DNA of 64,000 nucleotides. Origin: an uncultured Bacteroidales bacterium (GTDB lineage Bacteria; Bacteroidota; Bacteroidia; Bacteroidales; UBA932). Made by a program: the position numbers and the translations under genes. Shown one piece after another: positions 16,371 through 61,060 of the stretch. The first letter of the stretch is position 1; each line of letters begins with the position of its first letter. The notes under the pieces are model-generated. The model ran no database searches. It saw only the letters and a list, made by a program, of their open reading frames with translations, and was not told the origin of the DNA. The stretch covers positions 186,001 to 250,000 of the forward strand of contig CALUPG010000003.1 of the NCBI GenBank assembly GCA_944322565.1. The letters run 5' to 3'.

Positions 16371-16667
16371 TCAATCACATTTCACAAGTGTTCTGCCTCC
16401 AAGGACTAGATATATCCGGCCATTCCGTTCATACCATTTTCCTTTATTGATGTTTCCGGAAGAATCAGAAAAGGTAAATGTTCCGTCATCTTTTTCTTCC
16501 AATATCGAAAAAGAGCCAGCACTATAATTTCCTATATACAAAAATATATACGAACTAGTGACTTCAACAAAAGAGCCGTCATCTGCGCAATATTTGCCCG
16601 TAGGTATAGCCCATAGAGAAAACACCATTCCGAACAATAGCACGACAATAAGAATTAGTTTCTTCAT
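16371..16667 (-). CDS. Tiny exported protein, unknown
   Basis: This 98-residue protein has a strong signal peptide (MKKLILIVVLLFGMVFSLWA). The remaining 75 or so residues alternate strand-forming segments and glycines (GKYCADDGSFVEV, NKGKWYERNGRIYLVLGG). It resembles a small beta-sandwich or lipocalin-like fold and the other two strand-rich proteins of this island. Two cysteines (CADDG and the penultimate residue) could form a disulfide. It is the last gene of the AT-rich minus-strand cluster. Confidence 0.55.
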   Translation of the reverse strand: MKKLILIVVLLFGMVFSLWAIPTGKYCADDGSFVEVTSSYIFLYIGNYSAGSFSILEEKDDGTFTFSDSSGNINKGKWYERNGRIYLVLGGRTLVKCD

Positions 16668-16682
16668 AAATAATTGTAGTAA

Positions 16683-17003
16683 TTATAAATTAAAGAAATA
16701 AATACCATTGGCATAGTGACTATACCCGCTCCTTTTGTCGTTTTCATTATTGGCGTAAGGATTCGGATACACTCTATAAGTACCGCCGTCTATAGTTATC
16801 ATATTTGTCTCATCATTATAACTTCCGGATTTACTGTGATTTGTCACATAACCCTTAATCATAACGACGCGAACAGTACGGACTGCAGCAGACCTGATTT
16901 CAGAATAAACATTTTCTGAAAAATTCATTGAAGATGATGCATATGGAAATGCAATCAGACAACAAGCGACTAATATTGCCGCTGAAATTAAATTGTTTTT
17001 CAT
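16683..17003 (-). CDS. Tiny exported protein, unknown
   Basis: This 106-residue protein has a signal peptide (NLISAAILVACCLIAFPYA). The mature part contains VRVVMIKGYVTNH, a possible strand core, and an Asn/Tyr-rich tail ending in a hydrophobic FFNL. No family is recognised. It has the same orientation, composition and spacing as its neighbours (15 bp before the next gene). Confidence 0.5.
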   Translation of the reverse strand: MKNNLISAAILVACCLIAFPYASSSMNFSENVYSEIRSAAVRTVRVVMIKGYVTNHSKSGSYNDETNMITIDGGTYRVYPNPYANNENDKRSGYSHYANGIYFFNL

Positions 17004-17021
17004 AATATTATTAGTGTTATA

Positions 17022-17315
17022 TTAAAGATTTTGGACTATATATCCACTGCCATTGCATTTTGAACAAGTAAGATATGTTTCAGAATATCCTTTATAATCA
17101 CATCCCGAACACCCTTTCCCGGCGCATGCTGCATGTCTCTTTTTAATAGTAATATGGCCTTTCCCGTTACATCTCGGACATTTTTTCTTTAATTTCATTT
17201 GTTCTGATGGTATTGTCTGAGAATATTCCGGATTCATATTGCCATGACAAAACAGAGTAGTATCAACGAATGTTGCAGCGAACATTACTGTCAATACGAT
17301 AATTAATTTTCTCAT
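17022..17315 (-). CDS. Exported mini-protein with DnaJ-type zinc-finger repeats
   Basis: This 97-residue protein has a signal peptide (MRKLIIVLTVMFAATFVDT). It then carries two CxxCxGxG units, CPRCNGKG and CSKCNGSG, flanking CAGKGCSGCDYKG. This is the repeat pattern of the DnaJ cysteine-rich zinc-binding domain, but no J domain or substrate-binding domain is present. Export of such a domain is unusual. It could bind zinc or form disulfides outside the cytoplasm. It lies inside the AT-rich cluster of tiny exported proteins. Confidence 0.6.
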   Translation of the reverse strand: MRKLIIVLTVMFAATFVDTTLFCHGNMNPEYSQTIPSEQMKLKKKCPRCNGKGHITIKKRHAACAGKGCSGCDYKGYSETYLTCSKCNGSGYIVQNL

Positions 17316-17334
17316 TTACTGAATATTATTGTTA

Positions 17335-17517
17335 TCAATACTTATACTCATCTGGCGCAGTCTGATTCCATCCATATCTGAATCCTTCCTGAAAATCCGG
17401 GTCCATTGGATCACATGACATGAACATCGATACTGCTGTCAGCAGAGACAAAACAAGAAAGAGCATTTTCTTGATACTTTTCTTTTTAGTTGTAGCAATA
17501 GTTGTTTCCATAAACAA
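17335..17517 (-). CDS. Tiny lipoprotein, unknown
   Basis: This 60-residue product has a lysine-rich n-region, a hydrophobic core (MLFLVLSLLTAVSMF) and lipobox MFMSC. That leaves a mature peptide of only about 25 residues (CDPMDPDFQEGFRYGWNQTA...). An Asp after the lipid cysteine and short acidic peptides are common in Bacteroidota lipoproteins. The mature part is too short for a fold. Function is unknown. Confidence 0.5.
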   Translation of the reverse strand: MFMETTIATTKKKSIKKMLFLVLSLLTAVSMFMSCDPMDPDFQEGFRYGWNQTAPDEYKY

Positions 17518-17576
17518 ACGCTTTAAATGATTATAAATTAATATTAATGTTATCGCAAACTCCGCGAATAAATATT

Positions 17577-17951
17577 TTATTTTTTGAAATAAATCGTTCC
17601 GGCAATTGACAATGAGCTCAATGTCTGATGATCAGATTCATAAGTAAATGACCCCTTATATATTACTCTGCCATTATCAATCAGGCGAATTTCATTGCCA
17701 ATTACTGAATATTCACATGAAACGTCCAATCTGTCATTATAGTACATTTCGCATTTTCCGGAACTATACAGATAAATTTCTCGGCCGTCTCTGCTTCTCA
17801 GTCTTTGATTATGCCTGAATACAACCTCCGATTCTGATTGTAATTTCACCAATCTGTCATTGCGTATAAGACTCATGGCATCAGAAATAACCGGAACAGA
17901 TAAGAAGAGAAAATAAAATAGTGATATATAGATTAATTTATTTACTTTCAT
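17577..17951 (-). CDS. Small exported strand-rich protein, unknown
   Basis: This 124-residue protein has a signal peptide (LIYISLFYFLFLSVPVISDA) and strand pairs such as REIYLYSSGKCEMYYNDR and GNEIRLIDNGRVIYKGSFTY. The pattern resembles the preceding 129-residue protein, with which it overlaps by ATGA (start inside the upstream stop). They may be diverged duplicates, though I see no long identity. Confidence 0.5.
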   Translation of the reverse strand: MKVNKLIYISLFYFLFLSVPVISDAMSLIRNDRLVKLQSESEVVFRHNQRLRSRDGREIYLYSSGKCEMYYNDRLDVSCEYSVIGNEIRLIDNGRVIYKGSFTYESDHQTLSSLSIAGTIYFKK

Positions 17952-18337
17952 CTTAAGTTTGCTGTAAAATATAAACCATCAAAAGATATTCCCCACTTAT
18001 CTGATGTAGGGAAATATATCATACCGGAATATGTTCTTCCGTCAATATTGAATTCTATTCTATTGCTTCCGCCAGAATAGTATATTTCTCCTATTATTTC
18101 ATAAGTTCCATAGTGATAGCCGACACTTTCATCATACATTGTAACCTTCCCATTACTCCTTAATTCAATATATGCTACAGTTCTCCCATTTTCTTTATAG
18201 GTAAAATTACAATTGATGTAATCGGAAGATATTGAGACTAATTCAGATTCAGAATATAAGTGCGAATAATTCTCGTGAGCATCGGCATGGAGGGAAAAAA
18301 ATGACGCTACAATTAAAAATAAAGCTAAAGTTTTCAT
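17948..18337 (-). CDS. Small exported strand-rich protein, unknown
   Basis: This 129-residue protein has a signal peptide (MKTLALFLIVASFFSLHADA). It then shows a sequence of short strands with glycine turns (IELRSNGKVTMYDESVGYHYGTYEIIGE). Its stop overlaps the start of the next gene as ATGA. Its own ATG overlaps the stop of the broken lipoprotein frame upstream. Coupled translation across three frames is therefore likely when the upstream frame is intact. Confidence 0.5.
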   Translation of the reverse strand: MKTLALFLIVASFFSLHADAHENYSHLYSESELVSISSDYINCNFTYKENGRTVAYIELRSNGKVTMYDESVGYHYGTYEIIGEIYYSGGSNRIEFNIDGRTYSGMIYFPTSDKWGISFDGLYFTANLR

Positions 18338-18584
18338 AAAAAAAATTTAATAGAGTTGAAAATAATGTTTCTTAATATTAATACTGTGTTTGCAAACACA
18401 GGCAATGAGTAAATCAGGCAACCCGACTTGGCTCGGGACTCTGATATAGCCTCACCCAAATAAGTTCGGCCGCTTGAAGATTCCTGATAACCTTGGGCTG
18501 CGCCCGGAAGGCCACTGAACAATGCACTGCATGATGTGCAAAAGAATGCCGTAATAATTACAGCAATAGCTATAATTTTTTCAT
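18334..18584 (-). pseudogene. Lipoprotein gene with a frameshift in an A-tract at codons 2-3
   Basis: The minus-strand ATG at 18584-18582 is followed by six A residues, then TTATAG, so the literal frame stops at codon 5. Adding one A gives a continuous frame with a classic lipoprotein signal (MKKIIAIAVIITAFFCTSC) and a mature part of about 65 residues. It runs to a stop overlapping the next gene's ATG. The intact frame has a TGA just upstream of the A-tract and no other good start. Possible causes are a disabling mutation, slippage-based on/off switching, or a base-count error in the assembly. Confidence 0.55.
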
Positions 18585-19017: not shown

Positions 19018-19025
19018 TAACTTTG
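19018..19025 (+). promoter_or_regulatory. -7 element of the hdr-like operon
   Basis: TAACTTTG matches TAnnTTTG and ends 29 bp before the ATG at 19055. No clear -33 TTTG is present, so activation by a regulator is possible. The element lies inside an in-frame upstream extension of hdrC (ATG at 18971), which argues for the start at 19055. Confidence 0.45.
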
Positions 19026-19054: not shown

Positions 19055-19759
19055 ATGGGTAAACTTTACGATGAACTGGCCAAGGACTACAGAGTCAGGG
19101 AGGGACTCAAGACCTGCATCAACTGCGGTACCTGCACTGCCATCTGTCCTGCAGCCGAATTCTATAAATACGACCCCAGGAAGATTGTTGACATAGTTCA
19201 GAGCAAGGACGAGGCGGCAATCGAGAAACTGCTCAAAAGCGACGTGATCTGGTACTGCGGGGAATGCATGTCCTGCGTGACGAGATGTCCGAGGAAAAAT
19301 GCCCCGGGGCTTGTCATCATGGCCCTGCGCAATCTGTCCGCCAGGCTGGGTTACTTCGTATGCTCGGAAAAGGGGCGGCAGCTGTATCCTCTGACAAAAA
19401 TTCTCACAGGCAACATACTCAACTACGGATATTGCGTCTATCCGGACACATTCAGATGGGAAGACCATGTGGAATCCGGACCAGTCATGAAATGGCATCT
19501 GGAACACAAGGAAGACACCTTTGCCAGGGTCGGCGCTAATTTCAAGGGAGACGGCCCGGGAATCCTGAGGAAAATCCCACAGGAATCACTTGACGAGCTG
19601 AAGAGCATCTTTGATGTCACGGGTGGCACTGAAAGAATCGAGGCGGTGAACAAATTTTCAGAGGAAAAGGCAGCCGAGATGGGAATGGACATGGATGAAT
19701 ATTTAGAAGAGACATTCACCCATATTTCCCCAGGACATCTTAACAGTGAAGAGGATTAG
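19055..19759 (+). CDS. HdrC-like 2[4Fe-4S] electron-transfer subunit
   Basis: This 234-residue protein has two ferredoxin motifs, C21-x2-C24-x2-C27-x3-C31 and C68-x2-C71-x2-C74-x3-C78, each ending in CP. The arrangement is that of heterodisulfide reductase HdrC. The C-terminal 130 residues lack further cysteine clusters and extend beyond a minimal HdrC. The HdrB-like gene follows 23 bp later. In the family, HdrC carries electrons between the HdrA flavin subunit and the HdrB catalytic subunit. The start is chosen from the promoter position; an ATG 84 bp upstream is in frame. Confidence 0.8.
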   Translation: MGKLYDELAKDYRVREGLKTCINCGTCTAICPAAEFYKYDPRKIVDIVQSKDEAAIEKLLKSDVIWYCGECMSCVTRCPRKNAPGLVIMALRNLSARLGYFVCSEKGRQLYPLTKILTGNILNYGYCVYPDTFRWEDHVESGPVMKWHLEHKEDTFARVGANFKGDGPGILRKIPQESLDELKSIFDVTGGTERIEAVNKFSEEKAAEMGMDMDEYLEETFTHISPGHLNSEED

Positions 19760-19782
19760 CCTCTGACAGAAAAGACAGAATC

Positions 19783-20853
19783 ATGATTTATCAAGGAAAA
19801 CAGAAGATATGGGCGGATTATCAGAAAGAAATTCCGGATGACCGCTGGTATTATGTGAGGAGCTGCATCAGGCAGAACTTTTTCCCGGGAGCGGAAAAGA
19901 TGTTCATGGAGATATGCCGCAATGTGCTCAAGAAGGACTTTTACGAAAGCGCAAGCCACACCACATGCGGAGGCATCGCCTATCACTGCGACACCATCCC
20001 GCAGGAGACGGTGATGACTATCGTGGCAAGGCAGTTTGCCCTTATGACGGAAGCCGGATATGAGAATTATGTGGCTTCATGCATCACCTCTTTCGGCAAC
20101 TACATCGAAATCCTCGAGACATGGAACGAGTTCCCGGAGCTCGAGGCAAAGATACGCGAGATGCTCTGGAAGGCATGCCGCAGGGAATTCAACAAGCCGA
20201 AATATGTGGCACATGCAAGCGACCTCATATACAAATACAGGAATCTCATCGCGGAAAGGGCGAAATACCGCCTGATAAACAAGAATACCGGAGAGCCGCT
20301 CAAGGTGGTCGAGCACATCGGCTGCCACTACTCCAAGATGTTCCCTTCCAAGGGCGTCGGAGGGGCCGAATACCCTTATGTGCTCTGCGGAATGGTCGAG
20401 GCCTGGGGCGGCAATGTGATTGACTATCCCGAGAGACGCCATTGCTGCGGCTACGGCTTCAGGCAATACCATATCAAGGCCAACAGAGGCTATTCAATCT
20501 CCAACACCCACAAGAAATTTGAGTCCATGGAGCCTTACCACCCGGACATGATCATCACAAACTGCCCGGGATGCCCGTACTTTATGGACAGGTGGCAGTA
20601 CGCAATCGCGGAGATGGAAGGCAAGACATACGGGGAGAACGGGTACGGGATTCCTGTCTTCACATACGAGGAAGTCGCAGGTCTTGTGCTCGGATACGAC
20701 CCGTGGGATCTCGGGCTGCAGCTGCATCAGGTCGCAGTCGAGCCTCTTCTCGACAAGATGGGCATAGAATATGACCCGAAAAGAAAATACGAGGGACTGA
20801 ACCACAAGGACCTGCTCAAGCCGGAACTTCCGGGGGTGCTCAGATGCTGCTGA
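19783..20853 (+). CDS. HdrB-like subunit with one intact and one degenerate CCG module
   Basis: This 356-residue protein is built of two CCG modules, the domains that bind noncubane [4Fe-4S] clusters in heterodisulfide reductase. The C-terminal module is intact: C181, C221-C222-G223 and C261-P-G-C264. The N-terminal module keeps C28, C62 and C100 but has Thr61 where the first Cys of CCG belongs and Ser103 in the final CxxC. Probably only one catalytic cluster is formed, unlike methanogen HdrB, which has two. It ends in a CC dipeptide. It sits between HdrC-like and HdrA-like genes. The substrate is unknown and need not be CoM-S-S-CoB. Confidence 0.8.
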   Translation: MIYQGKQKIWADYQKEIPDDRWYYVRSCIRQNFFPGAEKMFMEICRNVLKKDFYESASHTTCGGIAYHCDTIPQETVMTIVARQFALMTEAGYENYVASCITSFGNYIEILETWNEFPELEAKIREMLWKACRREFNKPKYVAHASDLIYKYRNLIAERAKYRLINKNTGEPLKVVEHIGCHYSKMFPSKGVGGAEYPYVLCGMVEAWGGNVIDYPERRHCCGYGFRQYHIKANRGYSISNTHKKFESMEPYHPDMIITNCPGCPYFMDRWQYAIAEMEGKTYGENGYGIPVFTYEEVAGLVLGYDPWDLGLQLHQVAVEPLLDKMGIEYDPKRKYEGLNHKDLLKPELPGVLRCC

Positions 20854-20921
20854 CCCGGATTCCGTGCCGCAGGACATCATGCGCCGTATAATATTTAAAA
20901 AAAACGATGAAAGCCGTATAA

Positions 20922-21944
20922 ATGAAAGAGAACATCCTTATAATAGGCGGGGGCATCGCAGGACTTGAGGCTGCCGCACAACTCTTCAGACTGGGCTACA
21001 ATCCCATAATTGTAGAAAAAGAAGACCATCTCGGCGGACATGTGGCCGGATGGAACAGACTTTTTCCAGACATGAGCCCGGCAGAAGACCTTGTCGCAAG
21101 ACTCACCGAAGCAGCAGGAGAAGCCAACATCTTCCTCAATACCAGAATAGCCTTTGTCAACAAGCTGAAAGACAGCTACAACATAATGCTGACCAACGGC
21201 ATTTCGGTCATCACCAGAATACTGCTCTTCGCCACCGGATTCTCGCTCTTCGATGCTTCCAAGAAGGAGGAATACGGATATGGAGTATATGACAAGGTCA
21301 TGACCAACAGAGACCTCGAGAACTGGTTCAACACAGGGCAGGACGAAAGGATTCCGGAAGAAGGACCGAGGGCTATGGGCTTCGTGCACTGCGTGGGCTC
21401 AAGAGACGAAAAGGCAAAGAACCCGCAGTGTTCAAAAGTCTGCTGCATCACTGCCGTAAAACAGGCCATTGAGATGAAGCAGAAATTCCCTGATGCAATG
21501 GTATACTGCTTCTACATGGATCTGAGGATGTTCGGAAAAAAATACGAGGATTTCTACATCAGCGCGCAGCGTGACTACGGAGTCCGCTTCATCAGAGGTC
21601 GCGTGTCGGAAGTCAGCGAAAACATTGAGGGCAACCTCGTGGTCAAGGCAGAGGACACATTGTCCGGCAAGCCGATAAAAGTCACACTCGACCTGCTCGT
21701 GCTTATGTCCGGAATTGTATGCAACCAGGAGATATGCAAGTCGGCGGCCCAGCTTTCTCTTCCGATGGACTCGGACGGCTTCCTCAAGAGCAGGGACAAT
21801 GTCGCGGATATAATTGAGTCACCCAAGGAAGGAATCTTCTACGCCGGGGCCTGCACTGGACCGAAGACAGTCCCGGAGACACTTGCCGAGGCCCGCTCGG
21901 CGGCTCTGGAGATACACAATTATATCATAAGCAGCAGGAAATGA
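20922..21944 (+). CDS. Short HdrA-like FAD/Fe-S subunit
   Basis: This 340-residue flavoprotein has the FAD-binding loop GGGIAG (residues 9-14). It also has Cys157, Cys170, Cys174 and Cys175, whose spacing 13-4-1 is that of the cysteines holding the unusual [4Fe-4S] cluster beside FAD in HdrA. It lacks the extra ferredoxin domains and the thioredoxin-reductase-like insert of the larger methanogen HdrA, so in size it resembles QmoA or sHdrA. A GCCGTATAA repeat flanks the 68-bp gap before it. The stop overlaps the next gene (ATGA), indicating coupled translation. It probably passes electrons between HdrC subunits and a partner. Confidence 0.8.
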   Translation: MKENILIIGGGIAGLEAAAQLFRLGYNPIIVEKEDHLGGHVAGWNRLFPDMSPAEDLVARLTEAAGEANIFLNTRIAFVNKLKDSYNIMLTNGISVITRILLFATGFSLFDASKKEEYGYGVYDKVMTNRDLENWFNTGQDERIPEEGPRAMGFVHCVGSRDEKAKNPQCSKVCCITAVKQAIEMKQKFPDAMVYCFYMDLRMFGKKYEDFYISAQRDYGVRFIRGRVSEVSENIEGNLVVKAEDTLSGKPIKVTLDLLVLMSGIVCNQEICKSAAQLSLPMDSDGFLKSRDNVADIIESPKEGIFYAGACTGPKTVPETLAEARSAALEIHNYIISSRK

Positions 21945-22270
21945 TAGATTTCGGATTCAAAATATCGCCAAGTTCAGCCATCAATATGGACAATGCAGAC
22001 CTCTCGCTCTATGAAAAAGTGAGGGAGATTGAGCCTGACATAAGCAAGTGCATTGCCTGCGGCTCATGCTCGGCAACATGCCCTGCAGGCAGATTCTCCG
22101 GAATGAGCGTCAGAAAATGCATTCTGGACCTGCAGCGGGGCAAGAAAAATGAAGTGAAGAAAATGCTTTCATGCTGCATGCTATGCGGGAAATGCACCAT
22201 GGTATGCCCGAGAGGCATCAATACGAGGCATCTGATACTTTCCATCTGCAAACTGTACAAGGAGGACTGA
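21941..22270 (+). CDS. Second HdrC-like ferredoxin subunit
   Basis: This 109-residue protein consists of little more than two [4Fe-4S] motifs, C37/C40/C43/C47 and C79/C82/C85/C89. Both end in CP, and an extra Cys78 precedes the second. It is smaller than the first HdrC of the cluster. The start overlaps the HdrA-like stop by 4 bp, and the membrane HdrED-like gene begins 3 bp after its stop. It is positioned to link the flavin subunit to the membrane subunit. Confidence 0.8.
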   Translation: MIDFGFKISPSSAINMDNADLSLYEKVREIEPDISKCIACGSCSATCPAGRFSGMSVRKCILDLQRGKKNEVKKMLSCCMLCGKCTMVCPRGINTRHLILSICKLYKED

Positions 22271-22273
22271 CGC

Positions 22274-24073
22274 GTGGAAGAAAGATTTCTGACAGGATAC
22301 AACGACTTTGTGCTGCCGTTCATGATAGGAATGATTTTCATCCTGTCATACTGTCTGGTGGCCCTCGTACGCATAATAATGCAGCTTCCGGGCAATGACA
22401 GAAAGAAGTTCTTCATCTCTCTCGTCACCCCGAAGACAATGGCAAAGAACATACGGGACATATTCTGCGACTGTCTCTTCCATGTCAAGCTCTGGAAAAG
22501 GAACAAACTTCTGGGATACATGCATTCCAGCATAGCCTTCGGCTGGTTCATGCTGATTGTCGTGGGACACATTGAAGTTCTGCTCTATACGCCGCACAGG
22601 GCCAAACTGTTATACTTCCCTATTTTCTTCAGATACTTTGTGGCAGAGACAGAAGAAACAATGCGCGGGGCATTCTTCTTTTTCCTTATGGACTTCTTCC
22701 TTCTCATGGTACTCAGCGGCATTTTCCTGGCCATGTTCAAGAGAATCCAGTCGGGCGTATTCGGAATGCGCAGGACCACAAACCCGAGTTTCCTTGACCT
22801 GATAGGACTGTATTCCCTCTGGGCGATATTCCCGCTGAGGCTTCTGGCAGAAGGATTTACCGCAGACATCAGCGGAGGCTCGTTCCTTACCAAGTCCCTG
22901 AACTATGTCCTGCACTCGTTCCTGAGCGACCATGCCAACATGCTGCCCGCCTGGTGGGCATATTCATGTGCCCTGGGAATATTCTTGATTGTACTTCCTT
23001 TCACAAGATACATGCACATCCCGGCTGAGATTCTGCTGATTCCGCTCCGGAACGCCGGCATAAAAATCAGAAATGCCAGAAAAGGACTGGCAAAGGCTGA
23101 AGTGTATGCCTGTCCGAGCTGCGGACTGTGCATTGACGCCTGTCCTATGGGCGTGATGAAGACCCATATCAAGGACACTACGGTCTATCTTAACCGCCAG
23201 ATACGCCGCAACAACGAAAGGAGGATAGAGGAAATCAGTGACAAATGCCTTCTCTGCGGCAAATGTACGGCAATCTGTCCGGTCGGAGTCGAGGGAGACA
23301 AGCTCAGGATAGCGCAGCGGTCACTGCGCAAATACGCCATCAACCAGGATTATTCTGGCATAGACACGGATCAGCTCCATGTCAAGGGAGAAAAGGTCAT
23401 GTACTTCGCCGGCTGCATGACGGCCCTGACACCGGCAATCAGCAAGGCAATGGAGTCCCTGCTCCGGAAGGCTGGAGTCAGCTACAGCTTCATGGACAGG
23501 GACGGAGGCATCTGCTGCGGTCGTCCGATGCTGATGGCCGGGAGGTTTGACCAGGCTCGCCAGATGGTGGAAAAGAACACGGAAATCATCAAGGCCTCGG
23601 GCGCGGACACCCTGCTTCTCTCATGCCCGATATGCTACAGGATATTCAGGGAGAAATACCGGCTCGAAGGCATCAGGATAATTCACCACACCGAATATAT
23701 TGCGGAACTCATCAGGCAGGGCAGGCTCAGTATGGACAAGGGGTATACAAAATATGTATTCCATGACCCTTGCGAACTCGGCAGAGGATGCGGAGTCTAT
23801 GAAGAGCCTCGCGAAGTACTGTCATATGCCGGAGAACTTGTGGAGGCGACGAAGAACAGGAAAGAAAGCATCTGCTGCGGCGGAAGCCTCGGCAGCCTTA
23901 CCCTCGGCTTCGATAAGAGAAAGTCAATGACAGAGAACGCTCTTGCCAACCTAACTGAAGCCTCGCCAGATGTCATCGCCACTGCCTGTCCTCTGTGCCG
24001 GAGTACATTTGTCAGATATGCCGACCGCCCGGTGGAGGACATAGCCGAGATAATTGACAGGAATTGTATATAG
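22274..24073 (+). CDS. Membrane HdrE-HdrD fusion: cytochrome-b-like domain, ferredoxin and two CCG modules
   Basis: This 599-residue protein begins at a GTG. Residues 12-260 hold about five transmembrane helices of NarI/HdrE type with candidate heme histidines (H84, H99, H214, H220, H248). A 2[4Fe-4S] ferredoxin follows (C280/283/286/290; C325/328/331/335). Then come two complete CCG modules (C381, C414-C415, C451/C454; C500, C534-C535, C572/C575). This combines HdrE and HdrD in one chain, comparable to DsrMK- or HmeCD-type modules. The family exchanges electrons between (mena)quinone and a thiol/disulfide or related sulfur substrate. It is the only fully equipped catalytic CCG protein of the cluster. 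Confidence 0.82.
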   Translation: MEERFLTGYNDFVLPFMIGMIFILSYCLVALVRIIMQLPGNDRKKFFISLVTPKTMAKNIRDIFCDCLFHVKLWKRNKLLGYMHSSIAFGWFMLIVVGHIEVLLYTPHRAKLLYFPIFFRYFVAETEETMRGAFFFFLMDFFLLMVLSGIFLAMFKRIQSGVFGMRRTTNPSFLDLIGLYSLWAIFPLRLLAEGFTADISGGSFLTKSLNYVLHSFLSDHANMLPAWWAYSCALGIFLIVLPFTRYMHIPAEILLIPLRNAGIKIRNARKGLAKAEVYACPSCGLCIDACPMGVMKTHIKDTTVYLNRQIRRNNERRIEEISDKCLLCGKCTAICPVGVEGDKLRIAQRSLRKYAINQDYSGIDTDQLHVKGEKVMYFAGCMTALTPAISKAMESLLRKAGVSYSFMDRDGGICCGRPMLMAGRFDQARQMVEKNTEIIKASGADTLLLSCPICYRIFREKYRLEGIRIIHHTEYIAELIRQGRLSMDKGYTKYVFHDPCELGRGCGVYEEPREVLSYAGELVEATKNRKESICCGGSLGSLTLGFDKRKSMTENALANLTEASPDVIATACPLCRSTFVRYADRPVEDIAEIIDRNCI

Positions 24074-24093
24074 TAAACCAAAATATTTATACC

Positions 24094-25386
24094 ATGACAT
24101 TCACACCTACCAAGTACAAACTTATGAACTGCGGGACAGGAAGGGTATTTGAGGACGAAGGTTGGACTCTCACCGACCCGCAGGGTGACGGTCCTGCTCT
24201 TGTGAGGGCTGTCTATGAGAAAAAAACATTCGAACTCAGGAAAGATCTTGACGGATTCTACAAATTCGCGGACTGGCTTCCTATACAAAGGACACTTCTC
24301 CACTCTCATGTGCCGGTCACCTACAGGAGCACAGCCCTTGCAGGATATCTCGGACTTGAGAACCTCTATATAACCTTCTCGGGCTATTTTCCGAAAATTG
24401 GGGCACAAATGGAGACATGCTCATTCAAGGAGACCGAAGCCTATTCCGTCTGCGCAAGGCTGCCGGAAAAGCATGACAAAGTGCTTGTAGTGGCGTCAGC
24501 CGGCAATACGGCAAGGGCATTCGCAAAAGTCTGCTCTGACAACAACATCCCGCTGCTTCTGTCCATTCCTCTTGACAACATCAGCGCTCTATGGTTCCAT
24601 AAGCCGCTCAATGACTGCGTAAAAATCATCGCAGCCCCGCAGGGAGGCGACTACTTTGACGCAATAATGCTCGGAGACAAGGTCTGCGAGGCTGCCCCGG
24701 ACAGATTCATGGCAGAAGGCGGAGCCAAGAACATAGCGCGCCGCGACGGGATGGGAACAACATTGCTCTCAGCAGTTGAAGTGACCGGACGCATTCCGGA
24801 TGCCTATTTTCAGGCTGTCGGAAGCGGCACAGGCTCCATCGCCGTCTGGGAGAACAACCTCAGACTCATAGAAGACGGGCGTTTCGGAAAGCACAGGATG
24901 AGACTTTATCCGTCGCAGAACTCTCCGTTCACGATTATGTATGATTCCTGGAAAGCACGCTCCCGCAAGCTTGTTCCGCTCTCAGCCGACGAGGCGAGAG
25001 CCCAGGCAGCAGAAATAAAGGCCAAGGTACTCTCCAACAGAAAGCCGCCATATTCTCTTGCCGGCGGACTGTTCGATGCAATGAACGATGCCGGAGGCGA
25101 CATGTTCAAGGTCACCAACAATGAACTTGAGGTATGGAAAGAACGGTTCCAGGCACTTGAAGGCATTGACATCTATTCTGCGGCATCAGTGGCTGTGGCC
25201 AGTCTTGCCCAGGCCGTGGAATCAGGGGCTGTCGCCAAAGACGAACTCATCATGCTCAACATCACCGGAGGAGGCGAAGCTCTTACCAAGAAGCACCATG
25301 AGGTGGTCTATGCAAAGCCAGATCTGGTGATTGACACATTCCTGCCTGCCGGGGAAATTGCCGACATGGTCGAAAAACTCTTCTGA
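24094..25386 (+). CDS. Cysteate synthase (PLP-dependent, threonine-synthase-like)
   Basis: This 430-residue fold-type II PLP enzyme has the PLP lysine in CSFKETEAY (K112), SAGNTARAF (135-143) and the phosphate loop VGSGTGS (242-248). The segments YFQAVGSGTGSIAVWE, ARRDGMGT and NLYITFSGYFP match what I recall of Methanosarcina cysteate synthase rather than housekeeping threonine synthase. That family converts O-phospho-L-serine and sulfite to L-cysteate. In Bacteroidota cysteate is the head group of sulfonolipids. It starts 20 bp after the HdrED-like gene, within the same run. ATG 24094 is preferred over a start at 24064 inside the upstream gene. Plain threonine synthase is the alternative. 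Confidence 0.78.
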   Translation: MTFTPTKYKLMNCGTGRVFEDEGWTLTDPQGDGPALVRAVYEKKTFELRKDLDGFYKFADWLPIQRTLLHSHVPVTYRSTALAGYLGLENLYITFSGYFPKIGAQMETCSFKETEAYSVCARLPEKHDKVLVVASAGNTARAFAKVCSDNNIPLLLSIPLDNISALWFHKPLNDCVKIIAAPQGGDYFDAIMLGDKVCEAAPDRFMAEGGAKNIARRDGMGTTLLSAVEVTGRIPDAYFQAVGSGTGSIAVWENNLRLIEDGRFGKHRMRLYPSQNSPFTIMYDSWKARSRKLVPLSADEARAQAAEIKAKVLSNRKPPYSLAGGLFDAMNDAGGDMFKVTNNELEVWKERFQALEGIDIYSAASVAVASLAQAVESGAVAKDELIMLNITGGGEALTKKHHEVVYAKPDLVIDTFLPAGEIADMVEKLF

Positions 25387-25393
25387 CACAGCC

Positions 25394-26329
25394 ATGACAA
25401 GATTTCCGTTGCAGGTGACAGTGACTCCTGAAGACACTGCCGCAGTAAGCCATTTTGAATCAAGTGCCAGAGAAGCCATTGAGCACATTGCCACGACTCC
25501 TCTGGAACAGTTGCTGCCGGAACTTGCAGAAAGTGCCATACGCTTCGGCATCAAGGTCCTGATTGCACTTCTCATATATTTCATCGGAGCATGGGTTATA
25601 AAGAAAATCCGCGGCGTGCTCCGCAGGATTTTCGAAAGGAGAAAGACAGAGAAGGCAATTGCCTCATTCGTCGAAAGCCTGACAAGCATATCGCTGACAA
25701 TAATTCTCGTAATCATCACTGTCGGCACGCTTGGCGTCAATACCACCTCTCTGGCAGCCCTGCTCGCTGCAGGAGGTATGGCGATAGGCATGGCGCTGAG
25801 CGGCACAGTGCAGAATTTCGCCGGCGGCATCATGATTCTGGTGTTCAAGCCATTCAAGGCCGGAGACTTCATCGAGACCGAGAACGGCTATTCCGGTACA
25901 GTATCCGATGTAAACATATTCAGCACAAAACTCACTACCACCGACAACAAGATAATTGTCATCCCCAACGGCACATTGTCCAACGGAACAATAAAGAATT
26001 ATTCCCAGAATACGATGCGGCGCGTCGAATGGCTTGTCGGTGTAGAATACGGCACAGATTCGGGCAAGGTCAAGGCAGCCCTGGGAGAGATAGTGTCGGC
26101 GGAGAAGAGAGTGCTCTATATCGGCTCAGGCGCCCCGGCCGACCCACTGATTGAGGTCAATGCGCTTCAGGACAGCGCTGTCCAATATGTTGTGCGCGTA
26201 TGGGTGAAGTCAGAAGACTATTGGGATGTATTCTATTGTCTAAATGAGAAAATCTATACGGAACTGCCGCAGAAAGAAATTGGATTTCCGTTCCCTCAGA
26301 TGGACGTGCATATCACCCGAGAGGACTGA
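25394..26329 (+). CDS. MscS-family small-conductance mechanosensitive channel
   Basis: This protein of about 311 residues has three N-terminal helices. The third carries the Gly/Ala-rich MscS pore sequence (AAGGMAIGMALSGTVQNFAGG) followed by the beta domain (FKAGDFIETENGYSGTVSDV). The C-terminal alpha/beta vestibule is complete. Such channels release small solutes under tension. It starts 7 bp after the cysteate synthase stop, so co-expression is likely, and some MscS relatives export anionic metabolites. An in-frame start at 25331 inside the upstream gene is less likely. Confidence 0.88.
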   Translation: MTRFPLQVTVTPEDTAAVSHFESSAREAIEHIATTPLEQLLPELAESAIRFGIKVLIALLIYFIGAWVIKKIRGVLRRIFERRKTEKAIASFVESLTSISLTIILVIITVGTLGVNTTSLAALLAAGGMAIGMALSGTVQNFAGGIMILVFKPFKAGDFIETENGYSGTVSDVNIFSTKLTTTDNKIIVIPNGTLSNGTIKNYSQNTMRRVEWLVGVEYGTDSGKVKAALGEIVSAEKRVLYIGSGAPADPLIEVNALQDSAVQYVVRVWVKSEDYWDVFYCLNEKIYTELPQKEIGFPFPQMDVHITRED

Positions 26330-48083: not shown

Positions 48084-50003
48084 CTAACGGGAAAATTCCG
48101 CTGACGCATCCCGGACTATGTCTTCCGGGATATCACCTTCATCCAATGCCGTTCTGATGAACGAGTCATCCAGACTGAAGGCAGAGACAAGAAAATCAGC
48201 TGCGGCATTGAAATTCTCATAATATGAATCCATGTCTCCGGCATCAAGGCTTCTCTGTGCATCACGGCTGCGGACTATGGACCAGAGGTACTGCACCTTG
48301 GCAGATTCCTCCGTCATTGTCATGAGGGTCTGCTCGGCCATACGGTCAAATGCGGCCTTGTCCTGTGCAAGATACATCACGACCTTGTTTACCGGTGATG
48401 ATGCAGACACTATTGCGGAGATTTCATCGGAGAGGTTCTTCATGGCCGGGGATGAAGACTTCATATAATAGCCTCCATGGCAGAGGACAATGGCCCTGAG
48501 TAGTCTGTTTTCCTCGGTATCCGGCAGTATGGGAAGAAGAGAGCGAGCACTGTCATAGTCATCCCCGGCAAGAAAAGTCATTATCTGCAGGGCAACTGTC
48601 TGCTCTATATTGACGACTTCCTTTACTGTGCCATCTGGCTTGTAGACATAGTGATTGGCCGGACAGGACCTGTCAATGAGAGGAGACAGCACTGTCGTAT
48701 CGGCAATTCCCCTTTCCAGAGAGGCTGCGGCAAGATTGCCGGCGGCAAGCGGCCATGGCCGTCCGTTTATGGCGACGGACTCCCTGTAGGCCCGCCGGTA
48801 CAAGTCATACAGACGGTCGGGATCTTTCACCGCAGAAAACAGCTGCCTGTATTCGTCAAGTCCATATTGAGGCCTGACCGCTGCAGTCTCGGTCTCGTAT
48901 TTCGCAATGATTTCATCAGGAGAAAGCGCCCTGAGGCTTTCATACACATACTCGACAAGCACAGAATTTCTTTCGTCATACAGAGAATCGCTCCGTCCCA
49001 CATCCACTGTCCTGGTCTGGATGTATGTCCTGTTCCTGACATTCCGGGGAAGGATGGAATTTATCAGTTCCGTGGCCGTTCCAATGCGGTCAGACGCGAG
49101 CTTGCTGCCATCTGCTCCCGAGCCATAAGGCCTATATACAGAAATCCTGATGCTTTTCAGCTGGAACGCACTGCGTCCCAGGATATTGGAAATGTCCGCC
49201 TTCAGATTGCCGAGCCTGCCGGAATTGTCTTTGTCGGACATATCAAGGCGCGATGAGCCTGGAACAAAGCCGAGGCTCACTGCAGTTGTGGTGTTGCGAA
49301 GCTCAAGCCGCGGAGACACGACAAAGTCGTCCGGATTCAGAATATATGATGAAACCGGCATGTCCAGAAGGTGAAGGGGCCTCCATATACGGTCAGAGGC
49401 AACAGTCAGAGTATCCTGAAAATATATTTTCTTTCCTTTCCGAATATCCATCAGGGCTTTCACCTGATATTTGCGTGTATCCCCCTTGAGTGTAAGGTCA
49501 TTGGTAAAGGTAATGACCTTGAGGCTGTCCATCGCCGACACTTTGACCCGGTCCAGAGGATAGTCCCATTCCGCGCAGAAATCCCGGGGCTGGAAGCTGT
49601 CATCGTTTTCACAGAGGAAAAGGCGGAGATTCATGACAGAATTGGGGCGGATAAGGCCGACAGGGACATTGACATCAAAACTCAGAAGCCTTCTGTTGCC
49701 CACAAGACGGTTCTCCCTTTCCGACACGGATACTTCAAGGGCATTGTCTATCTCTACTTTCCCGGAGGATTCCGGCCTGGATTTCTCCTTGCGGGACAGC
49801 CGCTGTATGTAGCGGAAATACTTTTCCCTCTGTCTCTGCTCATACCGGCGGACCTTGTCCTCAAGCTTGCGGAGGACATCCATACCCTTTACTTCCTGCA
49901 CCTGTGGAGAAGCCGCACAGGAAGGACTCAATGATGCAGGTAAAACAAATGCCATTGCCGTCATGACGGCAATGACAAATATGTTTGCATACCTATTTTT
50001 CAT
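48084..50003 (-). CDS. Pilus-locus accessory protein, diverged third paralogue
   Basis: This 639-residue exported protein has a signal peptide core ending LSPSCAAS, possibly a lipoprotein. It follows the same plan as the genes at 50053 and 53319. An N-terminal beta region contains RPLHLLDMPVSSYILNPDD, a central region takes the place of the OmpA-like segment, and a helical repeat region holds LYDLYRRAYRESVAINGRPWPLAAGNLAAASLERGIADTTVLSPLI. Its central segment (SVYRPYGSGADGSKLASDRIGTA) has lost the peptidoglycan-binding pattern of the other two. It is the last gene of the pilus locus. Confidence 0.6.
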   Translation of the reverse strand: MKNRYANIFVIAVMTAMAFVLPASLSPSCAASPQVQEVKGMDVLRKLEDKVRRYEQRQREKYFRYIQRLSRKEKSRPESSGKVEIDNALEVSVSERENRLVGNRRLLSFDVNVPVGLIRPNSVMNLRLFLCENDDSFQPRDFCAEWDYPLDRVKVSAMDSLKVITFTNDLTLKGDTRKYQVKALMDIRKGKKIYFQDTLTVASDRIWRPLHLLDMPVSSYILNPDDFVVSPRLELRNTTTAVSLGFVPGSSRLDMSDKDNSGRLGNLKADISNILGRSAFQLKSIRISVYRPYGSGADGSKLASDRIGTATELINSILPRNVRNRTYIQTRTVDVGRSDSLYDERNSVLVEYVYESLRALSPDEIIAKYETETAAVRPQYGLDEYRQLFSAVKDPDRLYDLYRRAYRESVAINGRPWPLAAGNLAAASLERGIADTTVLSPLIDRSCPANHYVYKPDGTVKEVVNIEQTVALQIMTFLAGDDYDSARSLLPILPDTEENRLLRAIVLCHGGYYMKSSSPAMKNLSDEISAIVSASSPVNKVVMYLAQDKAAFDRMAEQTLMTMTEESAKVQYLWSIVRSRDAQRSLDAGDMDSYYENFNAAADFLVSAFSLDDSFIRTALDEGDIPEDIVRDASAEFSR

Positions 50004-50052
50004 ACATGTTCATATTCCGTTCAAAGTTAGAAACTTTTCGCGAAATAAGAAA

Positions 50053-51927
50053 CTACCGGGACTGTAGAGCCGTCCGCCAGACTGCCTCGGTTATATCACC
50101 GTCATATTCCGCCGTCTTCTTCAATGAGCAGTCGCGTCTTATGGCTTCAGACAATAATCCGGCAGCATCTTCTTCTTCCTTGAAAGAATTGTTGTTGTCA
50201 CCAAGCGATGAATAGCCGGCGGCACGGCGGCATGCCAGCACTGCTTTCAGGTAATATGTCATGGCATCGTCCTCAGGAAGAGACTCAACGATTTCCGAGG
50301 CCCTGGCATCATCCGAAGCCGTACAGAGGGAAAGATACATTATGGCCTTGTTTCTTGGTGAAGAAGACAATATGTCATTGAAACGCTCTTGCTGCACGGC
50401 ACGGAGACTTTCATTTTCGGAGGCTGCAAAATAATCCGCCTGATACATTATCATTGACTTCAGCAGACTGTGGCATTCATTGTCCGGCAGCACACGCAGC
50501 AGTCTCTCTGCCCCGTACAAATCCCCGGCAATCGCATACATGACGGCCTGCATGGCAATTACTGCCGGATTATTGATTTCCGCAACCCGTATTCCCGCCT
50601 CATTGCGCATTATGAATGTCTCCGGCACATATTTGTTTATGAACGGGGCGAGGAGTGCCGTATCGGAAATACCCCGTTGAGCCTTAGCTTTTGCAAGCAG
50701 ATACGAGGACAGCATCCAGGGACGGCCATATTCCTTGAGATACTGGTCACAGGCCCGCCTGTACAATTCATAAAGTTCATCCCTGTCTTCAACCATCTTA
50801 AAAAGATGCCAGAATTGATCTGATGAAAATTCTTTTGCACCGGAACGATAATCATTGTCTTCCATATAACGGGCATAAATTTCTTCCGGCGAAGGGAAAC
50901 TGTTGTCCGCATACCGGCATTCTATGGTAATTTTCCTGAACTCCGACAGATACGGGACTATGTCATCCTCATAAAACGGCAGATTCCTTATCTGAGAGTA
51001 CCGGCTTTCCTCAGAACTGGCTCCGTCAAGTATGGCACGGAGCTCCGCGGCTTCGGCAAAGAGCGAATCCTTCTCCATCGCTGTCGCAACATCATCCCAT
51101 GCTGCCACCTTCGCACTCTGCATGATGAATGTCCTCTCCCTTATATACTCCGGGACAACTGAGCTGATGATTCCGACAGCCTCCGACAGCCTTTTTCCGG
51201 CGAGAATTTCATTTGCGGCACTGTTGCCCGCCGGGGATGCCCATCCCTCAATATGTATCTCCATCAATTTCTTGCTTTCAGAATTGATTATTCCGGATAG
51301 AGATGACTTCAGTTCTTCAAGAGAACGGGATGTCAATGAGTCCTTCTCATCAGGCATATGACTGCCGGGCGCGCACCGGAGAGTCGTTTCTGCAGTGAAG
51401 CGCTTCAATTCTTTTCTCGGCCTCGACTTGTTACTGTTGAAATCAAGATTATAGTCGTCAAGCGGATACTCCAGCATCCGGAAAGGCCTGCGTACACGTG
51501 AAGAAAAAGCAATGACTGTATCTTCGGTCTCTTTCCTGCCGGCAGAATACCAGAGGAGCGTATTGACAGTGTCCGTCATATTATCAAGGACTACATGTGT
51601 CTGAAATATCTCGGAAAGAAAATCGGTCTTCTTCTTCCATTCGGAATCCTTTTCAGGGATTATCATGAGCGGGACCGTCCTTTCCTCAAATCCGTCCTGA
51701 CTGACATTGTACGCCTCTCCTTGCGGCATAAAGAAAGCCAAATAGAGTTTCTTTGTATTATATTCAGCAGGGACGGACACCTGGAATGAAATGTGCCTTC
51801 TGTTTCCGACCTGGACCGTTTCATCCTGACGCGGGATAATCTTGATTTCCTGGGCACTGACGGATAATCCCGCCTGCAGCATCATTAGTGCGGACAGGGC
51901 TGTGACTGACAAGATACTCTTTTTCAT
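50053..51927 (-). CDS. Pilus-locus accessory protein, OmpA-like/repeat type
   Basis: This 624-residue protein has signal peptide VTALSALMMLQAGLSVSAQ. An N-terminal beta region contains RPFRMLEYPLDDYNLDFN. The central OmpA-like segment IHIEGWASPAGNSAANEILAGKRLSEAV holds the Gly-x-Ala/Asp pattern. A C-terminal helical repeat region holds WHLFKMVEDRDELYELYRRACDQ. It fits Bacteroidales DUF3868/OmpA-like proteins found beside fimbrillins. It may anchor the assembly machinery to peptidoglycan. It lies 10 bp after the barrel gene and 49 bp before its own paralogue. Confidence 0.62.
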   Translation of the reverse strand: MKKSILSVTALSALMMLQAGLSVSAQEIKIIPRQDETVQVGNRRHISFQVSVPAEYNTKKLYLAFFMPQGEAYNVSQDGFEERTVPLMIIPEKDSEWKKKTDFLSEIFQTHVVLDNMTDTVNTLLWYSAGRKETEDTVIAFSSRVRRPFRMLEYPLDDYNLDFNSNKSRPRKELKRFTAETTLRCAPGSHMPDEKDSLTSRSLEELKSSLSGIINSESKKLMEIHIEGWASPAGNSAANEILAGKRLSEAVGIISSVVPEYIRERTFIMQSAKVAAWDDVATAMEKDSLFAEAAELRAILDGASSEESRYSQIRNLPFYEDDIVPYLSEFRKITIECRYADNSFPSPEEIYARYMEDNDYRSGAKEFSSDQFWHLFKMVEDRDELYELYRRACDQYLKEYGRPWMLSSYLLAKAKAQRGISDTALLAPFINKYVPETFIMRNEAGIRVAEINNPAVIAMQAVMYAIAGDLYGAERLLRVLPDNECHSLLKSMIMYQADYFAASENESLRAVQQERFNDILSSSPRNKAIMYLSLCTASDDARASEIVESLPEDDAMTYYLKAVLACRRAAGYSSLGDNNNSFKEEEDAAGLLSEAIRRDCSLKKTAEYDGDITEAVWRTALQSR

Positions 51928-51937
51928 TGTATTCCAA

Positions 51938-53338
51938 TTATTTGGCCTCGGTATGCCTTTTCAGTTGCCCGAGATCAAGTTCAACTCCGAAATTAATGTT
52001 GAATGTGCCGTCGTAGTAGTTGTAGCCCACATGCTTGAGAGGTTCCGGACTCTCGTTCACGACATTGTAGGGCACCACTGAAAAATGCGGCTCGACATAC
52101 ACCGAAAGATAATCTATGACGCGGTACTTTGCCTGTACCCCGCCGGCAAGTCCCAGGTAGAGTCTGTTGATATTGTCGGAAAGTTCCTGTTTGGTCATGC
52201 CGCCGACTTCCGGACCGAAAAGAAGCGAGAGTGAGAAATGAGGGCCGAGCCCGTCACCGTATCTGTCCTTCGGAGTGAAGAGCCTTATGACATCAAGCAT
52301 TCCTTCCACTCTGGCCCCATAATAGAGAGTGTTCTTGCGCGTACCGTCTATGTATTCTTTCCATCTGCTGTGGGCAAAGAATCCCGTGAGGCGGAGAGCA
52401 AAGACTCTTGAAAACCAGCGTCCGTATGAAATGTTGTACTGGGCACCGAGAGAGCGGTGGAATCCGTCAAAATCATAGACAAGATCCGAGTTCTGATACT
52501 GGGGGCCGACAGACACGGAGACAAATGAGCTCCCGCGTGTCTCGGCGGGACATCTGTATGGCTCGAAAGAATGAAAACGCCAATTTACTCCCATAGTGCC
52601 TCCATATCCAATGTCATATATCCTCCAGTTCCATCCTCCGGAATGGTCCATGCCGTCAGAATTGGCTGACACAAGCGGCTCAAGGAAGAAATCCAGATTC
52701 TTGGCCACATTCATCTTCAGGTTAAAGCCTATGTGGAGAGCCCCTGCGTGATAGCCGTGCCTGTCCATAATGGAGTATCTGTATCTGAAGCCTTCGACCG
52801 TGGATATCTCAAAAAATCTGGCCGGATTATATCCTCCGAAATATGCACTCAGATTGAACATGTGGGACACATCGAAGCCGACATTCCAGATATGCTGACG
52901 GTCGACATTGCGGAAATGCTGCTCCGCCGCAAGCGAAAGACGGAGAGCATTGTACTTGTCAATCCATTTTCCGTATGACAGGCGGGCAGCCAGCCCCCAG
53001 GCATAGGTGGAATTGCCGAAAGGCACGAACTGCTCCGTACCGGCATGAAGCGAAAGGAACGTATTGTCAGTGAATTTTTCTGACTTGAAATCTTTTCCCC
53101 GATAAATATATCGTTTCTGAAGGGTGTACTTCAATGCGTCAAACCCTCTGTCATCAGCCGAGACTGAATCCGCAGGCGATGCAGACGAAGTATCGGCCGG
53201 GGAAACAGCAAGCGTATCGGTCTTGCCAGCCGGAACAGCTTCAGCATACAGAGCTGTCACAGGCATGCAGAGCAAGACCGGAGTGTAGAGTAAAATACGG
53301 TATATGTCCTTGAAAAATTTACAGCTGCTCATCTTCAC
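51938..53338 (-). CDS. DUF3575-like outer-membrane barrel protein of the pilus locus
   Basis: This 466-residue protein has signal peptide core ILLYTPVLLCMPVTALYA and a short Ser/Ala/Asp linker. A long barrel follows (LRLSLAAEQHFRNVDRQHIWNVGFDVSHMFNLSAYFGG...; NINFGVELDLGQL). DUF3575-like features are its aromatic-rich strands and its location among such proteins, but it is over twice as long as a minimal member. The start overlaps the end of the preceding gene by 20 bp. Confidence 0.6.
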   Translation of the reverse strand: MKMSSCKFFKDIYRILLYTPVLLCMPVTALYAEAVPAGKTDTLAVSPADTSSASPADSVSADDRGFDALKYTLQKRYIYRGKDFKSEKFTDNTFLSLHAGTEQFVPFGNSTYAWGLAARLSYGKWIDKYNALRLSLAAEQHFRNVDRQHIWNVGFDVSHMFNLSAYFGGYNPARFFEISTVEGFRYRYSIMDRHGYHAGALHIGFNLKMNVAKNLDFFLEPLVSANSDGMDHSGGWNWRIYDIGYGGTMGVNWRFHSFEPYRCPAETRGSSFVSVSVGPQYQNSDLVYDFDGFHRSLGAQYNISYGRWFSRVFALRLTGFFAHSRWKEYIDGTRKNTLYYGARVEGMLDVIRLFTPKDRYGDGLGPHFSLSLLFGPEVGGMTKQELSDNINRLYLGLAGGVQAKYRVIDYLSVYVEPHFSVVPYNVVNESPEPLKHVGYNYYDGTFNINFGVELDLGQLKRHTEAK

Positions 53339-55628: not shown

Positions 55629-55663
55629 CTGCTGCGGCATTAACTGATTCAATGATTACAGGA

Positions 55664-56242
55664 TTATCTGATGATATATGAGAATGTTATTCCAAGGTCC
55701 ACAGGGAACATCTTGTAGCCCTGTGCATTGGTCCTCACTGCCTCATCTACAAAATAATCATCATAATTATCATTGGAGAAATACTGTTTCTGATAGAAAT
55801 ACATGAAGCCGAAACTGCCTGAAAGTTCAAGATTCCAGCGCTTTCCCAAAGAGAACACATAGCCCCCCGTGATACCGAGCCCCACTGCGTCCCCATCATA
55901 GACAGTATTCTTCCAAGTGATATCGTAGATTGTCATCAGGGCACCTATGCCTATGAACTCGCGGATCATGGGACGGCCGTTGAACCAATATCTGAATTCA
56001 GGCTGCAGGCCCACAATCTTGGAATTGATGCCATATGGCTTGAAATGGCCGAATGCACCGAGATCCACACTTGTGTGCTCGCCCGTAACTATTTCAAAAC
56101 CGAGGTTCGGGGTCATCCCCGCCCACATGAGCACATTTGTCTTCACCGCCACCTGCTGTGCGTCTGCCTCATGAGAGGAGACACACAGCATAAGGAGCGG
56201 GAAAATAATGCCCGATAATAATCTGCGCAAAAATTTCATCAT
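55664..56242 (-). CDS. DUF3575 outer-membrane protein of the pilus locus
   Basis: This 192-residue protein has signal peptide RRLLSGIIFPLLMLCVSSHEADA. It then has the characteristic DUF3575 opening AVKTNVLMWAGMTPNLGFEIVTG, then FGHFKPYGINSKIVGLQPEFRYWF. It ends in a strand (LGITFSYIIR). DUF3575 proteins accompany fimbrillins in Bacteroidales and may serve as an outer-membrane base. Its start codon overlaps the last base of the upstream fimbrillin stop. Confidence 0.8.
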   Translation of the reverse strand: MMKFLRRLLSGIIFPLLMLCVSSHEADAQQVAVKTNVLMWAGMTPNLGFEIVTGEHTSVDLGAFGHFKPYGINSKIVGLQPEFRYWFNGRPMIREFIGIGALMTIYDITWKNTVYDGDAVGLGITGGYVFSLGKRWNLELSGSFGFMYFYQKQYFSNDNYDDYFVDEAVRTNAQGYKMFPVDLGITFSYIIR

Positions 56243-57282: not shown

Positions 57283-57317
57283 GATAATTGGTGTTAAATG
57301 GTTTATAAATGGATAGG

Positions 57318-58394: not shown

Positions 58395-58423
58395 AATGTC
58401 TTGAAAATTCAGATTGTCCTAAA

Positions 58424-59698: not shown

Positions 59699-59785
59699 TG
59701 CTTAAATAATTAGTTTATATTGGGTTAATAAATTTTCACACAAATATTCATATACTGATTGCATTTTCTGCATCGAACAGTCATC

Positions 59786-61054: not shown

Positions 61055-61060
61055 CCCAAT

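Follow-up and report, generated by a model that had tools for sequence, protein, structure and literature searches.

The described systems closest to the locus analyzed here are the sulfur-oxidizing Hdr-like (sHdr) complexes, which in Acidithiobacillus and Hyphomicrobium are encoded by the gene series hdrC1B1A-hyp-hdrC2B2 together with lbpA. A second system, known for one of the subunits, is EtfD, the mycobacterial ETF:menaquinone oxidoreductase, a membrane Fe-S/CCG protein that passes electrons to menaquinone. Gut Bacteroidota contain sulfonolipids, bioactive lipids of the membrane whose synthesis requires sulfite at its first step. The sHdr complexes are thought to oxidize sulfane sulfur to sulfite (PMC6335251, PMC6067878), and in the sHdr literature their association with LbpA has been called inevitable.

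The locus occupies positions 19055 to 26329 of the window, the 64,000-nucleotide stretch of DNA analyzed here, and comprises seven plus-strand open reading frames with intergenic gaps of 23, 68, -4, 3, 20, and 7 bp, which bears out the tight spacing (at most 68 bp) given in the preliminary description. The gene calls made there (HdrC, HdrB, HdrA, a second HdrC, an HdrE-HdrD fusion, cysteate synthase, and MscS) were matched by Pfam and NCBIfam profiles, with refinements for HdrB, HdrA, and the fusion protein (ED). The first gene, hdrC1 (19055 to 19759), matched 4Fe-4S dicluster and HdrC models and has motifs for two 4Fe-4S clusters and an invariant extra cysteine, Cys127; hdrB, probably of the B1 type (19783 to 20853), matched CCG and HdrB models; and hdrA (20922 to 21944) matched FAD and HdrA models as a short FAD/4Fe-4S form of 340 amino acids. 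These are followed by hdrC2 (21941 to 22270; 109 amino acids, two 4Fe-4S clusters), which matched 4Fe-4S/HdrC models, and by hdrED (22274 to 24073), in which the profiles recognized two CCG domains, a 4Fe-4S domain, and a membrane part at the N terminus; it has two 4Fe-4S motifs and two intact CCG motifs. The nearest relatives of the locus are found in uncultured Bacteroidales (99% identity for the synthase) and in "Candidatus Cryptobacteroides" species, and the window's genome itself belongs to "Candidatus Cryptobacteroides". A weak candidate for a promoter element, TAACTTTG (plus strand, 19018 to 19025), lies 29 bp before the start codon (ATG) of hdrC1 and fits the -7 box of Bacteroidetes (TAnnTTTG); it is the only one of the 20 plus-strand matches in the window to lie just upstream of the operon, and no -33 element was seen.

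The order C1-B1-A-C2 followed by a CCG subunit resembles that of sHdr, as does the HdrA protein, which has the length of sHdrA and gave one continuous end-to-end alignment (193 bits) with 6tjr, which we take to be the Hyphomicrobium sHdrA; it carries neither the ferredoxin domains nor the other extra domains of bifurcating HdrA. The C-terminal CCG motif of HdrB is intact, and the N-terminal one is degenerate, with T61-C62 replacing the CC, and C100-x-x-S103 the CxxC, of methanogen HdrB; this reduced motif, of which only C28, C62, and C100 are left, was invariant across 82 homologs. In a comparison with a cyanobacterial B1 and a B1-like protein from an Acidithiobacillus plasmid, the corresponding T[ST]C and CxTSF were shared with both. 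The incomplete pair of CCG motifs in HdrB and the short HdrA rule out a canonical HdrABC of the methanogen type. Unlike sHdr, the window set (C1-B-A-C2-ED) lacks hyp and has no lipoate-binding protein of its own, its B2 is replaced by a membrane HdrE-like fusion, and it is embedded in lipid synthesis instead of sulfur chemolithotrophy. No LbpA, TusA, or DsrE genes were recognized beside hdr, and an LbpA-dependent sHdr was rejected because no LbpA was found in the window's genome, where the sole GcvH-like gene is part of an operon for glycine cleavage on a different contig. With hyp and LbpA not found and a membrane fusion as its last subunit, the complex is not classed as sHdr; it probably works like sHdr.

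A plasmid-borne Hdr cluster in Picosynechococcus PCC 7003 (L158) is similar to the window set in that its C1, B, and A proteins are 41 to 45% identical (45% for HdrC1), its HdrB has the same motif, and no lbpA is annotated nearby. It differs in having a separate HdrB-type B2 and no membrane fusion, and it adjoins a gene for a type III SQR-like flavoprotein instead of lipid genes. When plasmids were searched for reference sHdr sequences, only this cluster came up, together with the lone Acidithiobacillus HdrB1-like gene, which has a GcvH gene nearby. In the ED protein, a predicted membrane domain of the heme b type, in which His70, His84, and His248 are invariant, is joined to the 4Fe-4S and CCG domains. 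Its predicted structure (pLDDT 87) found its best fold match in mycobacterial EtfD (TM 0.72), with the same overall fold and domain order, and on this model the HdrE-HdrD fusion is structurally EtfD-like. Unlike EtfD, ED has 599 amino acids, against 742 residues in the solved chain, at 16% identity, and there are no ETF genes in the operon.

The sixth gene (24094 to 25386) encodes a PLP enzyme that the preliminary description had called a cysteate synthase, with threonine synthase as the alternative. The protein scored 445 bits against TIGR03844, 120 bits above the curated cut-off of 324.9, and matched 9k3c, a cysteate synthase of solved structure, from end to end (E 1e-164), whereas threonine synthase models gave at most 43 bits; these scores rule out a threonine synthase, and judged by its sequence the enzyme is a true cysteate synthase of the archaeal type. 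A homolog of the archaeal-type enzyme has been reported in Alistipes and Odoribacter (review, PMC10191378). The MscS-type channel gene that ends the operon (25394 to 26329; profile match) adjoins the synthase at several loci without hdr. Because it stays with the synthase where hdr is elsewhere, MscS was rejected as a member of the Hdr module; a tie to the synthase or to the position is more likely.

The genome from which the window comes also encodes SulA (contig C8:60341-61600), with an SDR and an acyltransferase-like gene beside it, and so contains the synthase, SulA, and SDR together. The SulA protein scored 586 bits against 7u7h, 559 against 28eh, which is labeled a cysteate-C-fatty acyltransferase, and 222 against serine palmitoyltransferase (SPT). 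From its label and score, 7u7h is presumably the A. finegoldii SulA of PMC9304779, in which Lys281 is named as the one clear active-site difference from SPT (Radka et al.). The window-genome protein has YAKSLP aligned with 7u7h, including the diagnostic lysine, where SPT 3a2b has alanine, and the bit scores together with this lysine rule out SPT and mark the protein as a cysteate acyltransferase. SulA was present at at least 58% identity in all but three (G300, G305, and G308) of 51 synthase genomes, the copy in G299 being a fragment.

In other Bacteroidales, hdr lies inside sulfonolipid operons. Four loci (L048, L056, L057, and L064) contained an operon for a VOC protein, a SulA-like protein, an SDR, hdrC1, hdrB, hdrA, hdrC2, ED, and cysteate synthase, and a further one (L065) had this operon with no SDR called. 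Four clusters (L119 to L122) combined SulA, a synthase-like PLP gene, and all five hdr genes; the arrangement of hdr relative to SulA, the SDR, and the synthase differs among L119, L120, and L121/L122, which points to repeated origin or rebuilding of the linkage. The proposal in the preliminary description that hdr serves sulfonolipid synthesis was thus strongly upheld as a link, by these SulA/ketocapnine reductase-like operons, by SulA in the same genome, and by the alternation and complementarity with CysH described below, although adjacency to the synthase itself is mainly a feature of one clade.

That adjacency, claimed at first for a single locus, recurs elsewhere, mainly in the Cryptobacteroides clade and its near relatives. 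Among 80 related synthase loci, hdr was directly upstream in 53 and missing from that position in 26, and 1 was ended by a contig edge; the order hdrC1-B-A-C2-ED-cysteate synthase was therefore kept at 53 of the 79 informative loci, with HdrB 77 to 100% identical. At the 26 loci without adjoining hdr, HdrB was present elsewhere in the genome in 17 cases and ED lay at contig ends in 2 more, so that hdr is retained even when unlinked (19 of 26). Overall, hdr was present in 43 of the 50 synthase genomes tested; in the other seven, which as MAGs may be incomplete, no hdr was found, and six of these also had no CysH. At linked loci, HdrB shows about half the divergence of the synthase (mean distance, 0.12 versus 0.23). 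A class-level search found HdrB of the window type in one sampled genome outside the Bacteroidales, which also has the synthase. A few genomes carry second hdrC1-B pairs in other contexts. At the order level, hdr and the archaeal-type synthase showed no association (48 genomes with both, p 0.21), and the wider link of hdr is with the sulfonolipid pathway, not with the archaeal-type cysteate synthase gene alone.

In sulfonolipid clusters of other families, the position of hdr is taken by genes of assimilatory sulfate reduction. Five clusters (L123 to L126 and L131) had SulA and a synthase-like gene with cysH instead of hdr, and four others (L129, L130, L132, and L133) had cysH in place of hdr along with genes that, on reading of the sequences, were named cysDN-like, cysQ-like, and permease-like. 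The synthase-like PLP protein of these clusters from other families is ThrC-like, scoring below the TIGR03844 cut-off, and is possibly CapA. No sulfite reductase was recognized in SulA clusters with either cysH or hdr, and sulfate reduction there would end at sulfite. The hdr genes hold a place equivalent to that of CysDNC and CysH, although the latter proteins are unrelated to Hdr, start from sulfate, and consume electrons.

Gene presence was compared, using hand-compiled lists, in 295 Bacteroidales genomes and again with one genome for each of 118 families. SulA occurred in 86 of the 92 genomes with HdrB and was missing from six; HdrB or CysH occurred in 193 of the 209 SulA genomes versus 22 of the 86 without SulA (OR 35, p 1.6e-30). 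Where SulA was accompanied by a synthase or synthase-like gene, the genomes had hdr only (24), cysH only (71), both (21), or neither (9), an inverse relationship (OR 0.11, p 6e-7). With one genome per family, a sampling that leaves some phylogenetic dependence and to which MAG incompleteness adds noise, SulA was present in 37 of the 38 HdrB families and remained associated with HdrB or CysH (OR 17, p 1e-8), and hdr and cysH tended to exclude each other in SulA-plus-synthase families (OR 0.13, p 0.002); the 88 SulA families included 23 with both hdr and CysH and 8 with neither. CysH was not found in the window's genome or in the three further genomes sampled from its family, and it was present in only 4 of the 50 synthase genomes of the named collection. 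Thus, hdr is associated positively with SulA and inversely with CysH: among Bacteroidales from gut and sediment, hdr replaces CysH within sulfonolipid clusters and genomes.

Since hdr stands where CysH otherwise does, it probably makes sulfite by anaerobic oxidation of reduced sulfur; sulfite supply is most simply the role that hdr and cysH share, and by analogy with sHdr sulfite is the likely product. We consider it likely that, in anaerobic Bacteroidales without the CysH route, the hdr operon serves to supply sulfite for making sulfonolipid (capnine). Counting against this reading are the failure to recognize LbpA, TusA, or DsrE beside hdr, the families with both systems or neither, the synthase genomes in which no hdr was found, the HdrB genomes that lack SulA, and the missing order-level association with the archaeal-type synthase. 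We infer complex formation, the substrate, the product, the direction of electron flow, and menaquinone as the acceptor as follows. HdrC1, HdrB, HdrA, and HdrC2 would form a soluble complex, related to sulfur-oxidizing sHdr, that converts reduced sulfur (sulfane sulfur and persulfide are candidate donors) to sulfite, and the electrons would travel by way of Fe-S clusters and CCG sites to the membrane-bound, EtfD-like HdrE-HdrD and on to menaquinone. Cysteate synthase would condense the sulfite with O-phosphoserine to give cysteate, from which SulA/CapB (contig C8) and the SDR reductase would produce capnine. The potentials of the couples are -116 mV for sulfite/HS-, -270 mV for S0/HS-, and about -75 mV for menaquinone. 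The sulfite/S0 couple calculated from these textbook values lies at about -39 mV in the standard state and about -130 mV at 1 uM sulfite; by this arithmetic, which is not evidence, oxidation by menaquinone works only at low sulfite, and cysteate synthase would keep sulfite low and so pull the reaction. With somewhat less assurance, but as more likely than not, we suggest that the locus represents assimilatory sulfur oxidation, in which an Hdr complex that is coupled to the membrane and has no lipoate carrier of its own produces sulfite anaerobically from reduced sulfur, as a widespread biosynthetic alternative to sulfate reduction for sulfonolipids in Bacteroidales.

It is possible, though unlikely, that the complex oxidizes reduced sulfur chiefly for detoxification of sulfide or persulfide or as a source of electrons, with the synthase acting as a sink for toxic sulfite and the link to lipids secondary. 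According to PMC11129491, Black Sea Bacteroidota, including Labilibaculum euxinus, carry complete Hdr gene sets for which sulfide detoxification was proposed, yet no sulfide oxidation was observed in the strains, and the SQR-like gene beside the cyanobacterial cluster would also suit such a function. Detoxification would not require SulA, however, which nearly all HdrB families possess, and hdr sits within lipid operons, where it alternates with cysH. In favor of the proposed sulfite supply, PMC12927429 reports that L. euxinus has capABC homologs and that capnine lipids make up 24 to 33% of its lipids by peak area; in the parts of both papers available, neither connects hdr with capnine. A limited literature search found no paper containing both "sulfonolipid" and "heterodisulfide reductase", and in PMC9304779 and PMC10191378, on the sulfonolipid pathway, the word sulfite is absent and hdr is not mentioned.

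More doubtful than detoxification is a function of the complex in some other redox reaction of sulfonolipid or envelope metabolism, such as chain modification, in which case the alternation with cysH would reflect lifestyle, with anaerobes keeping hdr and others sulfate assimilation. The families with both hdr and CysH are consistent with this, as is the phylogenetic signal that family sampling removes only in part, but the same operons house either hdr or cysH, and among relatives of the window the gene for the sulfite-using enzyme comes directly after hdr. Marginally less probable again is a reductase that uses menaquinol or another donor to reduce a disulfide or sulfite and thereby controls the pool of thiols or of sulfite in organisms that make sulfonolipids. 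Heterodisulfide reductase ancestry and the intact CCG motifs of ED and of the HdrB C terminus would accord with such a reductase; against it stand the degenerate N-terminal motif of HdrB, an HdrA without the extra domains of bifurcating HdrA, and the likeness of ED to EtfD, by established knowledge a menaquinone reducer, and a remover of sulfite would not be expected to replace cysH. An accidental neighborhood inherited in one clade, to which the linkage with the archaeal-type synthase is indeed mainly confined, is very improbable, and chance adjacency is ruled out by the order kept at 53 of 79 loci, by hdr in SulA operons of further families with other gene orders, by its retention when unlinked, and by a rough estimate of the odds that random placement would put hdr beside SulA or a synthase in 4 of 38 families (p 0.002).

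Supply of sulfite by hdr would thus have a clear place in these organisms, as many likely sulfonolipid producers, that of the window included, are without the CysH route from sulfate to sulfite. If the proposal is true, a biosynthetic sulfur-oxidizing complex operating under anoxia would be the source of sulfite for CysH-less producers, and a use would be suggested for the Hdr gene sets described in the Black Sea Bacteroidota study (PMC11129491). Hdr-like sulfur oxidation would then extend from chemolithotrophy to gut commensals.

In several of the clusters read, SulA, the cysteate fatty-acyltransferase of sulfonolipid synthesis, is adjoined by a gene encoding a ThrC-like PLP protein. This gene lies on the minus strand in L119 (8411-9640) and L121 (13449-14669), both of which are SulA clusters with hdr genes, and in L123 (6440-7762), a cluster of the same kind with cysH. 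The family, which is present in about 50 genomes beyond these three loci, has profile scores of 80 to 145 bits versus TIGR03844, the archaeal-type cysteate synthase model (cut-off, 324.9 bits). It probably represents a second cysteate synthase type and perhaps corresponds to CapA. In the window's own genome, SulA is found on contig C8, where genes for an SDR and a 429-aa acyltransferase-like protein follow it (L157:6207-9600); the latter had no NCBIfam match and is a candidate for the enzyme of the final N-acylation step in sulfonolipid synthesis.

MscS (25394-26329 in the window, and its relatives) keeps its place beside cysteate synthase in several loci with hdr elsewhere, where a CaCA-type cation exchanger is often encoded 5' of the synthase. 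The cysteate synthase gene of G562, a relative in the window's family, overlaps at its end with a gene for a SulP-type permease (L134:12875-14650). Upstream of hdr, the window carries about seven small, AT-rich, for the most part secreted-looking open reading frames (16371-18522, minus strand), found among relatives only in L012, from the same species; in several relatives, this position is taken by an NfeD-like gene. A series of fimbrillin- and lipoprotein-like genes occupies 48084-63504 (minus strand).

Among the plasmid loci compared, that of Picosynechococcus sp. PCC 7003 (L158:6068-11808) contains the set hdrC1-B1-A-C2-B2 and, after it, a type III SQR-like gene, with no annotated lipoate-binding protein in the vicinity. 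The Acidithiobacillus ferrooxidans plasmid (L159:6386-10089) carries a solitary HdrB1-like gene, with GcvH-type, hemerythrin, and globin genes close by.

Pairs of hdrC1-hdrB without hdrA, hdrC2, or the HdrE-HdrD fusion occur in L146 (G396) and L151 (a second copy in G562), neighbored by Mrp/NifH-like ATPase, OsmC-like, MetB-like, or DUF134-like genes, and represent a two-gene Hdr module in a different context. OsmC-family proteins are encoded next to hdr genes at L119:2846-3268 (minus strand) and L146:10961-11365 and may serve there as thiol or sulfur carriers.
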